From positions 3,286,001-3,350,000 of the forward strand of contig NC_018748.1 in NCBI RefSeq assembly GCF_000263195.1: a DNA stretch of 64,000 nucleotides, written 5' to 3'. The notes under the pieces were generated by a model, which was not told where the DNA came from, did no database searches, and saw only the letters and a list, made by a program, of their open reading frames with translations. How positions within the stretch are numbered: position 1 is the first letter of the stretch; every line of letters begins with the position of its first letter. The position numbers were made by a program, and so were the translations under genes. Positions 41,243 to 46,795 of this stretch are shown here, piece by piece. Origin of the DNA: Emticicia oligotrophica DSM 17448 (GTDB taxonomy: Bacteria > Bacteroidota > Bacteroidia > Cytophagales > Spirosomataceae).

Positions 41243-41312
41243 CGAAGCTGCTCTTCTCAGCGTTAGTAACCGTAGGTAAAATAAACTATTAGATAAACTT
41301 AATAAAATGCCC

Positions 41313-41352
41313 AAAAACTGGTGCCTGAGCGAAGTCGAAGGTCCAGTTTTTT
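41313..41352 (+). terminator. Terminator hairpin carrying a REP-like repeat in its loop
   Basis: Arms AAAAACTGG (41313-41321) and CCAGTTTTT (41343-41351) enclose one copy of the 23-bp repeat (TGCCTGAGCGAAGTCGAAGG). A T run follows, and the dehydrogenase operon likely ends here. Confidence 0.75.
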
Positions 41353-41415
41353 GCCTTTCATCACTCATTAATTGTAGCTCAATCAATTTTTCGACCCAAT
41401 TTGTGCCTTTTTCCT

Positions 41416-43913: not shown

Positions 43914-45644
43914 ATGGAACAAGTAAAATTTTCTGACCTCCCAGTTTCAGAGTACATTCTTCGTGCAGTAGAAGAGATGGGTTTCGAGTTTTCAACACCA
44001 ATTCAATCTCAGGGGATTCCTGCAGTTTTGCGTGGCGGTGACGTAATCGGACAAGCTCAAACTGGTACAGGTAAAACTGCTGCTTTTGGTATTCCTGCCA
44101 TTGAAGCAGTAGATGTTGAAGACAAAAACACACAAGTATTGGTAATGTGTCCAACACGCGAGTTGGCATTGCAAGTAAAAGAGCAAATTCAAAAGCTTGC
44201 AAAGTATAAAAAAGGCCTTCATGTAGCTGCTATTTATGGTGGTGAATCGTATGAGCGTCAGTTTTTAGCATTGAAAAAAGGTGTTCAGATTGTAGTTGGT
44301 ACTCCCGGCCGTATCATGGACCACATCGACCGCAAGACATTATCATTGAGTAGCATTAAAATGGCTATCTTAGATGAGGCAGATGAGATGCTTAATATGG
44401 GCTTTAGAGAAGATATTGAGAAAATCTTGTCTTATGCACCAGACGAACGCCAAACTGTACTTTTCTCGGCAACTATGTCGCCAGAAATTCTTTCAATTGC
44501 TAAGCGTTTCCAAAAAGACCCAGAAGTTATTCGTACGGTTAAAACTGAAATTTCAAATGCAAATATTGAACAATTTTTCTTCCCAGTACGCCGTGAGGCT
44601 AAAATGGAAGTTATGACTCGTTTGATAGATGTAAACAACTTGAAATTGATGTTGGTATTTGCCAATACAAAATCAAAAGTTGATGAAATCGTGAGCGAAT
44701 TACAGATTCGTGGTTACGCCGCTGAAGGTCTTCATGGTGATATGCGTCAGCAAGTACGTACGCAAGTAATGAATAAGTTCCGTGCTGGTACTACAACAAT
44801 TTTAGTAGCTACCGACGTAGCTGCTCGTGGTATTGACGTTTCGGGGGTAGATGCTGTATTCAACTATGATGTACCGCAAGATTTAGAGTATTATGTTCAC
44901 CGTATTGGTCGTACAGGCCGTGCTGGTAAAACAGGAAAAGCATTTATGTTTATTTCTGGTCGTGAGAAATCTCGTTTACGTGAAATAGAATACTATACAA
45001 AAGTTAAAATCGAACAAGGCCAAATTCCTACATTGGCTGAGTTGATTAAAACGCGTCATCAAAAGTTTGTTGAGCAAGTAAGAGAAACGCTTACAGCAGG
45101 TATCGAAGAAAATTACGAAGATATCATCAATGAATTAAGTAATGAAGGATACTCTGATGTACAAATTATGTCGGCATTAATTAAGATGCAGGTGGGTACA
45201 ATTAAGAGTGAATTCTCGGATAATCAATTATCAGATAGCTATCGTGAGTCAAGAAGCAATGACCGTTTTGGTAGTCGCGATTCAAGAAGCACTTCAGGTC
45301 GTAGAGATAGCCGTGATGGTGGTCGTGATTTTGGACAATCTCGCGAGCGTCGTTTCGAACCAAGAGAAAGACGCCGTGAAGGTGGGCCATCGCGTGGTTC
45401 AGCTAATGGTGATATGGTACGTTTGTTTTTAAGCCTAGGTCGTAAAGACAACGTTGCACCAAACCATATTGTTGGTGCGATTACATCTGAGACTCGCATT
45501 GCAGGTCGTGCAATCGGACAAATTGATATTTATGATAAATTTAGCTTTGTTGAAGTTCCACAGGCAGATGTAAAGCGTGTATTGGAAGGAATGCAAGGTA
45601 AAACTATCAATGCTCGTCAAGTAAGCATGGAAATTGCTAAATAA
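43914..45644 (+). CDS. DEAD-box ATP-dependent RNA helicase with DbpA-type RNA-binding domain
   Basis: This 576-residue RNA helicase of the DeaD/CsdA type probably unwinds rRNA or mRNA structures. The Q motif STPIQSQGIP is near residue 28, Walker A AQTGTGKT is at 48-55, and PTRELALQV, DEADEMLNMGF (about 153), SAT and HRIGRTGRAG follow in order. An Arg/Ser/Asp/Gly-rich linker spans about 437-500. The last 75 residues (VRLFLSLGRKDNVAPNHIVG) are a DbpA-like RNA recognition fold. The gene has its own promoter, a long structured leader and a strong terminator. Confidence 0.94.
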   Translation: MEQVKFSDLPVSEYILRAVEEMGFEFSTPIQSQGIPAVLRGGDVIGQAQTGTGKTAAFGIPAIEAVDVEDKNTQVLVMCPTRELALQVKEQIQKLAKYKKGLHVAAIYGGESYERQFLALKKGVQIVVGTPGRIMDHIDRKTLSLSSIKMAILDEADEMLNMGFREDIEKILSYAPDERQTVLFSATMSPEILSIAKRFQKDPEVIRTVKTEISNANIEQFFFPVRREAKMEVMTRLIDVNNLKLMLVFANTKSKVDEIVSELQIRGYAAEGLHGDMRQQVRTQVMNKFRAGTTTILVATDVAARGIDVSGVDAVFNYDVPQDLEYYVHRIGRTGRAGKTGKAFMFISGREKSRLREIEYYTKVKIEQGQIPTLAELIKTRHQKFVEQVRETLTAGIEENYEDIINELSNEGYSDVQIMSALIKMQVGTIKSEFSDNQLSDSYRESRSNDRFGSRDSRSTSGRRDSRDGGRDFGQSRERRFEPRERRREGGPSRGSANGDMVRLFLSLGRKDNVAPNHIVGAITSETRIAGRAIGQIDIYDKFSFVEVPQADVKRVLEGMQGKTINARQVSMEIAK

Positions 45645-45670
45645 TATTTGATTGACTGATAGTATATTTA

Positions 45671-45712
45671 AAAGCGAAGTAAAAGTTTTTATGGCTTTTG
45701 CTTCGCTTTTTT
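45671..45712 (+). terminator. Intrinsic terminator of the DEAD-box helicase gene
   Basis: AAAGCGAAGTAAAAG (45671-45685) pairs with CTTTTGCTTCGCTTT (45695-45709), one T-G pair, ending in T residues that also start the next hairpin. Confidence 0.88.
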
Positions 45713-45760
45713 CATAAAATCGGGCCTTCGGCTTCGCTCAGGCACCGATTTTATGAAAAA
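45708..45760. repeat. REP-like repeat inside a 16-bp hairpin
   Basis: Perfect arms TTTTTCATAAAATCGG (45708-45723) and CCGATTTTATGAAAAA (45745-45760) enclose a reverse-oriented repeat copy (GCCTTCGGCTTCGCTCAGGC). The arms carry T and A runs, so it may terminate transcription on either strand. Confidence 0.8.
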
Positions 45761-45808
45761 TCCTTAAGCTTGAATCATAATAAATTATAATTCAAGCTTA
45801 GGTGTTTT

Positions 45809-46195
45809 TTAGTTTTGTGTACATTCAGAATCAGTATGATTTTGAGCGAAGTCATTTACTGCCAAAGTAGGGTCATTCGGTGCCTGAGCGAAGTCGAAGG
45901 CCCGAAAATGGCTTTCATTTCTACATTCAGCAAGTTTGTGTAATTCATCAAAATCTCCCTTTATCAAAGCTTCTTTCTTTTTTCTACTCCATTTCTGAAT
46001 TTGTTTTTCTCTAAGAAAAGCCTCATCTATTCTATCAAACGCTTCATAATAAACGAGTTCGACAGGTCGATGTTTTCTTGTATGATTTGAACCTTCTCCA
46101 TTCTGATGTTGCTGTATTCGAAGTTCAAGATGGGTAGTGCTTCCAGTGTAGTAACTACCATCAAAGCATTTTAAAATATACATGAAGCCACGCAT
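45809..46195 (-). CDS. Small GIY-YIG nuclease-family protein with repeat-derived tail
   Basis: This 128-residue protein of the UvrC-like GIY-YIG class (UPF0213/COG2827-type) has its GIY-YIG core in MYILKCFDGSYYTGST at residues 5-20. Conserved Arg 26 (LELRIQQHQNG) and the Glu-containing FLREKQIQKWSRKKKEALI follow. The domain ends about residue 90. The tail is encoded by repeat sequence: RAFDFAQAPNDP (98-109) is a full REP-like copy and DFAQNH (115-120) a partial one. Further copies lie on both sides. Nuclease activity is inferred, with an RNA or DNA target unknown. ATG 46195 or 46183 may be the start. Confidence 0.85.
   Translation of the reverse strand: MRGFMYILKCFDGSYYTGSTTHLELRIQQHQNGEGSNHTRKHRPVELVYYEAFDRIDEAFLREKQIQKWSRKKKEALIKGDFDELHKLAECRNESHFRAFDFAQAPNDPTLAVNDFAQNHTDSECTQN
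45878..45904. repeat. REP-like repeat copy inside the GIY-YIG gene
   Basis: This forward copy (GGTGCCTGAGCGAAGTCGAA then GGCCCG) is flanked by short complementary arms TTCGG/CCGAA. A partial copy TGAGCGAAGTC lies at 45843-45853. Both are read as protein tail on the minus strand. Confidence 0.85.
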
Positions 46196-46240
46196 AAAGT
46201 TGTGTTAGTAAAAGTTGTCTGAATTTAACCAAATGCCTTG

Positions 46241-46262
46241 CCTTCGGCTTCGCTCAGGCACC
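46241..46262. repeat. REP-like repeat copy upstream of the GIY-YIG gene, reverse orientation
   Basis: CCTTCGGCTTCGCTCAGGCA plus CC is the inverse of the copies at 45878 and 46383. Confidence 0.85.
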
Positions 46263-46279
46263 AGTCAGTTTAGTAGTCT

Positions 46280-46401
46280 GAATTTGAGAAATCTTTTAAA
46301 ATTTTCAAATCTGTGCCTAAACGAAGCCGATATTTATGTGCTCTACTAAGAATTTGAGAAATTTGATAATAATTTCAAAATCGGTGCCTGAGCGAAGCCG
46401 A
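46280..46401. repeat. Two direct units of about 52 bp, each ending in a REP-like copy
   Basis: Unit 1 (46280-46330) and unit 2 (46350-46401) both begin GAATTTGAGAAAT and end with a repeat copy (degenerate TGTGCCTAAACGAAGCCGA and intact GGTGCCTGAGCGAAGCCGA), 70 bases apart. This stretch explains most of the gene-free gap 46196-46420. Confidence 0.75.
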
Positions 46402-46412
46402 AGGCCCGATTT
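46378..46412. repeat. REP-like repeat within AAATCGG/CCGATTT arms
   Basis: This intact forward copy at 46383-46405 is flanked by 7-bp complementary arms (46378-46384 and 46406-46412), next to the 3' end of the lipoprotein gene. Confidence 0.8.
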
Positions 46413-46420
46413 AAAGATTT

Positions 46421-46795
46421 TTATTTTATATATTTCTCCTTCACGGTCATTTCCCAATCGCCTAAGCTACCGTAAAGAACCATTGAACCAAAACGAAACT
46501 TATCTATAATTTCAGTTCCTTCAGAAACAGAATCATAAAACTCTTTATCAACGGGGAGTTCAAACTCAATCGCATTTACGGCATCTTTTATATGCTTTTT
46601 TATACTTAAAGAAAGATGCGATTGTTTCAACTTTAGTTTTAACATATACTTAGGCCCTTTGGCTTCTGTCCCAGCTTTTAAGGCATTTACTTGGGCGACA
46701 AGGGCAGCATTCTCTTTCTTAAGATTTTCCAATTCTTCACTATTTTTGCAAGAAACAAGCAAAAATGCAGCAAATATGATGAGGTATGATTTCAT
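46421..46795 (-). CDS. Small coiled-coil lipoprotein, unknown function
   Basis: This 124-residue lipoprotein has lipobox LLVSC (Cys 16). A short heptad segment follows (ELENLKKENAALVAQVNALK, about 21-40) and would form a coiled coil. The rest is a compact alpha/beta region with KYMLKLKLKQSHLSLSIKKH and an end containing GSLGDWEMTVKEKYIK. I recognise no family. It lies 22 bases downstream of the Gfo/Idh gene on the same strand and is probably co-transcribed with it. Confidence 0.75.
   Translation of the reverse strand: MKSYLIIFAAFLLVSCKNSEELENLKKENAALVAQVNALKAGTEAKGPKYMLKLKLKQSHLSLSIKKHIKDAVNAIEFELPVDKEFYDSVSEGTEIIDKFRFGSMVLYGSLGDWEMTVKEKYIK

Follow-up and report, generated by a model that had tools for sequence, protein, structure and literature searches.

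Tagged hairpin repeats accompany a small GIY-YIG nuclease gene in Emticicia oligotrophica and at related loci

REP-like repeats are widespread in bacteria. In the REP/RAYT and REPIN systems, the partner of the repeats is an HUH/Y1 tyrosine transposase. A different kind of enzyme is found in the Ssn proteins, which were reportedly described in 2025 by Chenal and others in Nature Communications as site-specific, single-strand specific GIY-YIG nucleases with cognate NTS repeats in Neisseria. Thousands of homologues are said to exist, different homologues going with different sequences. A further class of tagged hairpins, the CGTC-tagged REPs, includes Neisseria dRS3 and occurs mostly as head-to-head dimers. 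A 2013 survey records them from five phyla including Bacteroidetes, most of them in α-Proteobacteria, and presents this large class as apparently having no dedicated transposase (PMC3733652).

The window analyzed here is a 64-kb stretch of the 5.22-Mb genome of E. oligotrophica. It contains a small GIY-YIG ORF (PF01541 profile match, E = 3.2e-18), flanked by a DEAD-box helicase gene (43914-45644, plus strand) and a small ORF (46421-46795, minus strand) for which no Pfam match was found at E values up to 0.001. Elsewhere in the genome the profile search gave a single further PF01541 match, in an open frame of 612 aa that is UvrC-like by size; the ORF in the window is by this search the sole small GIY-YIG gene. 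NCBIfam gave no match above a cut-off, and an Rfam scan of 45600-46500 returned 19 matches at E up to 1, every one far under its gathering score. A GIY-YIG fold is predicted for the protein with a mean pLDDT of 95, and in an alignment of 37 sequences Y16, G18, R26, H30, and E63, which we take to be the catalytic positions, are invariant. A fold search placed UPF0213 proteins nearest among solved folds, with Slx1 next. The UPF0213 entries (PDB 1zg2 and 1ywl, 43% and 36% identical in the fold alignment) have the same domain as the nuclease, and stem from structural genomics, where they are named hypothetical proteins. E. aquatilis encodes a GIY-YIG protein that is 88% identical (locus L062). In the tail of the E. 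oligotrophica ORF (45809-45922), the stretches FDFAQAP and DFAQN are repeat-encoded and form part of the C-terminus, as though repeats had made their way into the gene at its 3′ end.

Table 1. Features of the 64-kb window at the small GIY-YIG gene, with the distant repeat copy.
Feature	Position	Strand	Exact 22-nt core	Remarks
Distant copy	41314..41349	plus	41320-41341	intergenic, within a hairpin resembling a terminator; arms unlike those of the other copies
Terminator-like inverted repeat	45671..45716	plus		GCGAAG..CTTCGC followed by a run of T; lies behind the DEAD-box helicase gene and marks the left edge of the variable region; present likewise at the other Emticicia sites read (by eye)
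Repeat copy 1, long hairpin	45712..45756	minus	45725-45746	boundary repeat; altered form in E. aquatilis (G085) and G062
Small GIY-YIG nuclease ORF	45809..46195	minus		128 aa, of which residues 1-91 (45923-46195) are conserved
Repeat copy 2	45879..45900	plus	45879-45900	within the 3′ end of the nuclease ORF
Repeat copy 3	46241..46262	minus	46241-46262	upstream of the nuclease start; hardly any pairing of outer arms
Degenerate repeat copy	46313..46330	plus		from alignment
Repeat copy 4, hairpin	46377..46412	plus	46383-46404	right boundary repeat

Four of the five exact cores, two on each strand, lie within about 190 bp of the GIY-YIG ORF. When the whole window was searched with up to three mismatches, no core beyond the five exact ones was found (0.00 expected from 100 shuffles). 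The degenerate copy is beyond the reach of such a search, and is borne out by an alignment in which 46300-46330 and 46371-46401 agree at 84%. A cluster in both orientations at the gene, a degenerate forward copy, and a single further copy in the rest of the 64 kb had all been claimed in the preliminary description of this DNA, and all three were recovered. Eight stretches were folded as DNA and compared with 200 shuffles each. Four of them beat all shuffles and one was reached by a single shuffle, while the remaining three (41306-41356, 45868-45912, and 46232-46276) folded weakly, with z between -1.9 and -0.6. Because of these three, the hairpin argument rests on covariation and not on folding energy.

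Further copies occur in the rest of the E. oligotrophica genome, where 12 exact 18-nt cores were found. Placed randomly, 12 copies would give about 0.002 per given 1-kb stretch. With a 19-nt core and up to two mismatches there were 32 matches, compared with 0 for a reversed-pattern control. The repeat has the anatomy of a tagged hairpin, which consists of an unpaired 5′ tag (GGT or TGTCA), a covarying 4-bp stem, and a fixed tip, GAGC-loop-GYCGA. Position counts around the core locate the conserved tag outside the stem on the 5′ side only. Across nuclease loci, counted with a maximum of two copies per locus (77 of 149 and 65 of 125 used), stem pairs 2-4 were formed in 88-95% of cases within a copy, compared to 38-81% between loci. 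For 36 copies from 24 loci of the E. oligotrophica genome, the first seven pairs were formed in 85% within a copy and in 67% when arms were swapped between copies; none of 2000 permutations reached the within-copy value. The loops are mainly 2 nt (TT in 65 copies, CT in 59) or 3 nt long (GGA in 49, GAA in 35, GTA in 17, GCA in 9), with other loops in 29 copies. GNA triloops between C and G form very stable DNA mini-hairpins. In another genome (G084), contigs C17 and C113 end in tandem repeat cores with a 40-bp period, and copies elsewhere are dispersed.

The association of repeat and gene was examined at 68 loci, which were obtained with the conserved 91 aa of the nuclease as query from a collection of 84,980 species, each represented by a single genome. 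A generalized core, TGAGC(N2-3)G[TC]CGAA, was set from the window copies and an earlier set of family loci. It was found at most 600 bp from the gene in 53 of the 68 loci, or in 51 of 65 without three same-genome loci (L062, L068, and L120) whose genomes had been used in setting the motif; L106 and L108, whose proteins do not differ in the part compared, were each counted. Within this distance there were 168 copies in 95.5 kb and farther away 42 in 912.7 kb, a 38-fold difference, and the reversed pattern gave 0 in both. When only non-ORF DNA was considered, which excluded copies inside predicted ORFs of at least 90 aa (86 near and 15 far), 82 copies in 22.9 kb compared with 27 in 144.6 kb, a 19-fold difference. 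A test that used no motif agreed with this: a 13-mer common to both 500-bp flanks was present in 42 of 64 loci (four of the 68 had a flank under 200 bp and were dropped), compared with 460 of 9240 random placements. The preliminary description had inferred a link between nuclease and repeats from a single locus, and GIY-YIG genes elsewhere do lie close to the repeats. The link between gene and repeat is real.

The exact motif was missing from 15 of the 68 loci, several of which have other flanking repeats. Neither the core nor any other flanking repeat shared across the gene was found at L123 and L124, and the core was absent from the UvrC-like locus L002. At the core-less GIY-YIG loci L071, L080, L085, L091, and L092, other sequences were found to be common to both flanks; these are possibly different repeat families with different specificity. 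A tandem run of four GIY-YIG matches, 336 bp apart, was also seen (G066:C8:113943-115148).

Since many copies are located between genes in terminator-like hairpins with A/T tracts, the repeats could be kept by host selection, as structural hairpins or as ordinary terminators that act in both directions, with the nuclease as a passenger in safe sites. Moreover, two orthologous Emticicia sites keep terminator-like hairpins while their cores change. As an account of the whole, this explanation is unlikely. A terminator would need neither the invariant GAGC..GYCGA tip nor the one-sided 5′ tag, and it would not lead one to expect the 19-fold excess beside the nuclease over other non-ORF DNA of the same loci.

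Gene and repeat were also compared across 150 genomes of the family, with the number of PF01541 matches as a proxy for the small gene, given that the UvrC-like gene usually accounts for one match. By this proxy, genomes with at least two matches (n = 90) contain a mean of 22.3 copies and those with fewer (n = 60) a mean of 4.0 (Mann-Whitney p = 1.8e-4). At least 10 copies were found in 33 of the 90 and in 7 of the 60. These seven genomes count against a reading of nuclease and repeats as one system; four of them are close Emticicia relatives. In nine genera with both kinds of genome, mean copy number was higher with the gene in eight and lower in one, several values being near zero. Repeat frequency therefore differs with the gene, as the link proposed in the preliminary description implied.

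The type of repeat was found to follow the type of enzyme. All copies of a locus have the same loop length in 56 of the 62 loci that hold several; shuffling gave a mean of 15.1 such loci and a maximum of 24. On a nuclease tree of 88 rows, the loop classes require 13 changes compared with about 23 when shuffled, and the GTCA tag 2 compared with 12.2, with 0 of 500 shuffles as low in either case; rows free of a label (18 for loops and 16 for tags) were omitted from these counts. When unlabeled loci were included, the 2-nt class required 16 changes (0 of 500), and the 3-nt class, which is less clearly clustered, 19 (3 of 500). Loci with other tags showed no clustering on the nuclease tree (76 of 500 shuffles as low). 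The tree is built on 91 columns and is short and poorly resolved, with many open forks. It leaves out L062, L068, and L120, whose genomes are the same as those of L036, L041, and L046, as well as L125, L127, L128, L129, L043, L039, and L053, for which the alignment was short or missing. Even without recognition, the linkage of gene and repeats in one cassette could produce such clustering of repeat types.

At the level of whole genomes, one loop length prevails by at least 4:1 in 33 of the 40 genomes (of 150) with at least 10 copies. Among 18 genomes with at least 10 copies, the loop class at the nuclease locus is that of most copies in 14, by a hand tally that includes local copies, which in G073 and G011 are a large share of the genome count. 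Agreement was found for 12 of 14 3-nt loci and for 2 of 4 2-nt loci, so that locus and genome match well among 3-nt genomes and at best tentatively among 2-nt ones. Agreeing examples are G008 (2-nt locus, 208 vs. 1), G096 (3-nt, 123 vs. 0), and E. oligotrophica itself (34 vs. 0). Locus and genome disagree in G064, G023, G093, and G112. In G056 the one nuclease locus read, L179, is flanked by 3-nt repeats in a mostly 2-nt genome (36 vs. 4) with three PF01541 matches. Except for G064, these discordant genomes (G023, G093, G112, and G056) have at least three PF01541 matches, which by the proxy means at least two small genes.

These results also bear on the possibility that a Y1/HUH transposase, of the RAYT or IS200 type, moves the repeats and that the GIY-YIG gene merely lies at an insertion hot spot. 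The E. oligotrophica genome does have nine PF01797 matches; a core was found once about 0.85 kb from the PF01797 locus L209, and L205 has a GAGCAAAGCCGA core at a distance of about 0.5 kb. A repeat cluster was seen at none of the eight PF01797 loci read in this genome, the ninth match having given no locus. Moreover, a hot spot in one genome leaves the association at 53 of 68 loci fetched by GIY-YIG unexplained, and the same holds for the clustering of loops and tags on the nuclease tree, which makes this origin of the repeats quite improbable.

In three genomes of another genus (G056, G069, and G040), the repeats form REPIN-like doublets. Among 19 inverted doublets, which had been picked as doublets from the match list, 18 have a spacing of 66-69 bp; in the remaining one it is 83 bp. 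Their inner junctions are conserved, the middle is variable, and the outer arms are site-specific. Folded as single-stranded DNA, one stretch of this type gave z = -16.8. At the G056 nuclease locus L179, such a doublet was seen by eye on either side of the gene. Copies in the E. oligotrophica genome are mostly single, with some inverted pairs of varied spacing.

The preliminary description had proposed a comparison of orthologous loci, and within Emticicia sites with and without the gene were both found. The gene is at the same place, with the same repeat arrangement, in E. oligotrophica (G000) and E. aquatilis (G085), where the exact cores have GAA loops (four) and GGA loops (three), respectively. 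In G062 the gene is absent and two inverted, altered boundary repeats are kept. G110 has one chimeric remnant, whose left half resembles the left repeat of G085 and whose right half resembles the right one. Other DNA is present at the orthologous site of G128 and G123, and in the remaining five genomes of the genus the two flanks were matched at non-adjacent places. By eye, this other DNA is partly alike between G123 (L134 and L148) and G128 (L132), and insertions may be especially frequent in this intergenic region. E. aquatilis has another small GIY-YIG match (G085:C10:239756-239983), which is broken by TAG and is probably a decayed copy. The copy at 41320 and that at G000:C5:2080827 had been considered as insertions facing an empty site. 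This was rejected, as the orthologous sites read carry altered, partial, or other hairpins; in the alignment of such sites, G062 and G123 cannot be relied on at their left ends.

In a tree of the neighboring gene, G000 is outside a clade of G085, G128, G110, G062, and G123 (support 100/99), with G102 unresolved beside them. By event count alone, two gains on the species tree are fewer than three or four losses. This would suit a homing endonuclease that stands alone, carries its cassette to new sites, and leaves the repeats as insertion scars, and so would the inverted boundary repeats, the gene-less sites, and the one fused remnant in Emticicia, as well as the related loci that come from records named as distant taxa. 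Scars would not be expected in the numbers seen in repeat-rich genomes, from dozens of copies to more than 200, and the genes of G000 and E. aquatilis share both locus and repeat arrangement; we consider homing very improbable. Based on this shared position and arrangement, an ancestral gene with several losses is the likelier history. Copy numbers of 42 in G085, 34 in G000, 12-22 in the gene-less members of the G085 clade, and 0-9 in other gene-less species fit a decay of the repeats after loss of the gene.

Taken together, the sequence evidence suggests that nuclease and repeats are probably one system, which may shape bacterial genomes, namely a small single-domain GIY-YIG enzyme with a largely coinherited cognate recognition element. 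The best reading is that of a putative site-specific nuclease with cognate single-stranded hairpin sites, which would work like RAYT/REPIN but with a GIY-YIG enzyme. Such a nuclease would recognize the element as folded single-stranded DNA, on the lagging strand or in incoming DNA, and would nick it. Nicking could maintain the repeats and occasionally spread them via repair or template switching, and could make the gene region deletable between inverted copies. Among the many copies that are now found between genes in terminator-like hairpins, some may end transcripts. More tentatively, and with considerable doubt, the nuclease might drive copy-and-paste of tagged single-stranded hairpins in the form of REPIN-like doublets. 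REP mobility would then have a second enzymatic solution, of a non-HUH kind, whose specificity could be read from the 5′ tag and from the length and letters of the loop, and the nuclease would be a candidate for the enzyme that CGTC-type REPs apparently lack.

GIY-YIG homing endonucleases are located in an intron or intein or in their own target gene, whereas the ORF described here, around which the Rfam scan was made, is free-standing and intergenic. Among the matches listed in searches of literature titles and abstracts, GIY-YIG enzymes were never linked to REP-like repeats, and six core strings had no occurrence in the literature searched. An 18-nt palindrome of Caldithrix was considered and rejected, as its sequence differs (PMC5317091). 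The likeness to REP/RAYT pairs noted in the preliminary description stands with respect to architecture, a nuclease gene among tagged hairpin repeats, and fails with respect to the enzyme, which is from a different fold family (GIY-YIG, PF01541). REP/RAYT and REPIN systems share with the present one a nuclease gene flanked by repeats, an imperfect hairpin whose 5′ tag is unpaired, inverted doublets, which here keep a fixed spacing in some genomes, and a repeat type tied to the enzyme type (PMC3116915; PMC8266576; PMC3733652). The REP/RAYT hairpin is preceded by GTAG, while the tag here is GGT or TGTCA, and copy number is lower in the genomes counted here than in REP/RAYT and REPIN systems. The TGTCA tag is similar to the CGTC of CGTC REPs, a likeness that concerns the tag and leaves stem and loop sequence aside.

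Enzymes and repeats in pairs that differ in loop and tag provide a natural matched set for studying single-stranded hairpin recognition. The association further hints at repeat partners for many of the small GIY-YIG proteins whose function is unknown. With regard to Ssn as reportedly described, the E. oligotrophica nuclease system is probably a Bacteroidota branch of that family. Two features reportedly typical of Ssn are found here, a small stand-alone GIY-YIG domain with its conserved residues intact and a specific sequence in many genomic copies that is associated with the gene; compared with Ssn, the element anatomy, loop classes, and doublets are known here from sequence only. If Ssn is as reported, systems of this type have been described before, and the present analysis contributes their Bacteroidota branch, with the anatomy of its element, two classes of loop and two tags in step with the enzyme, the doublets, and the sites that lack the gene.
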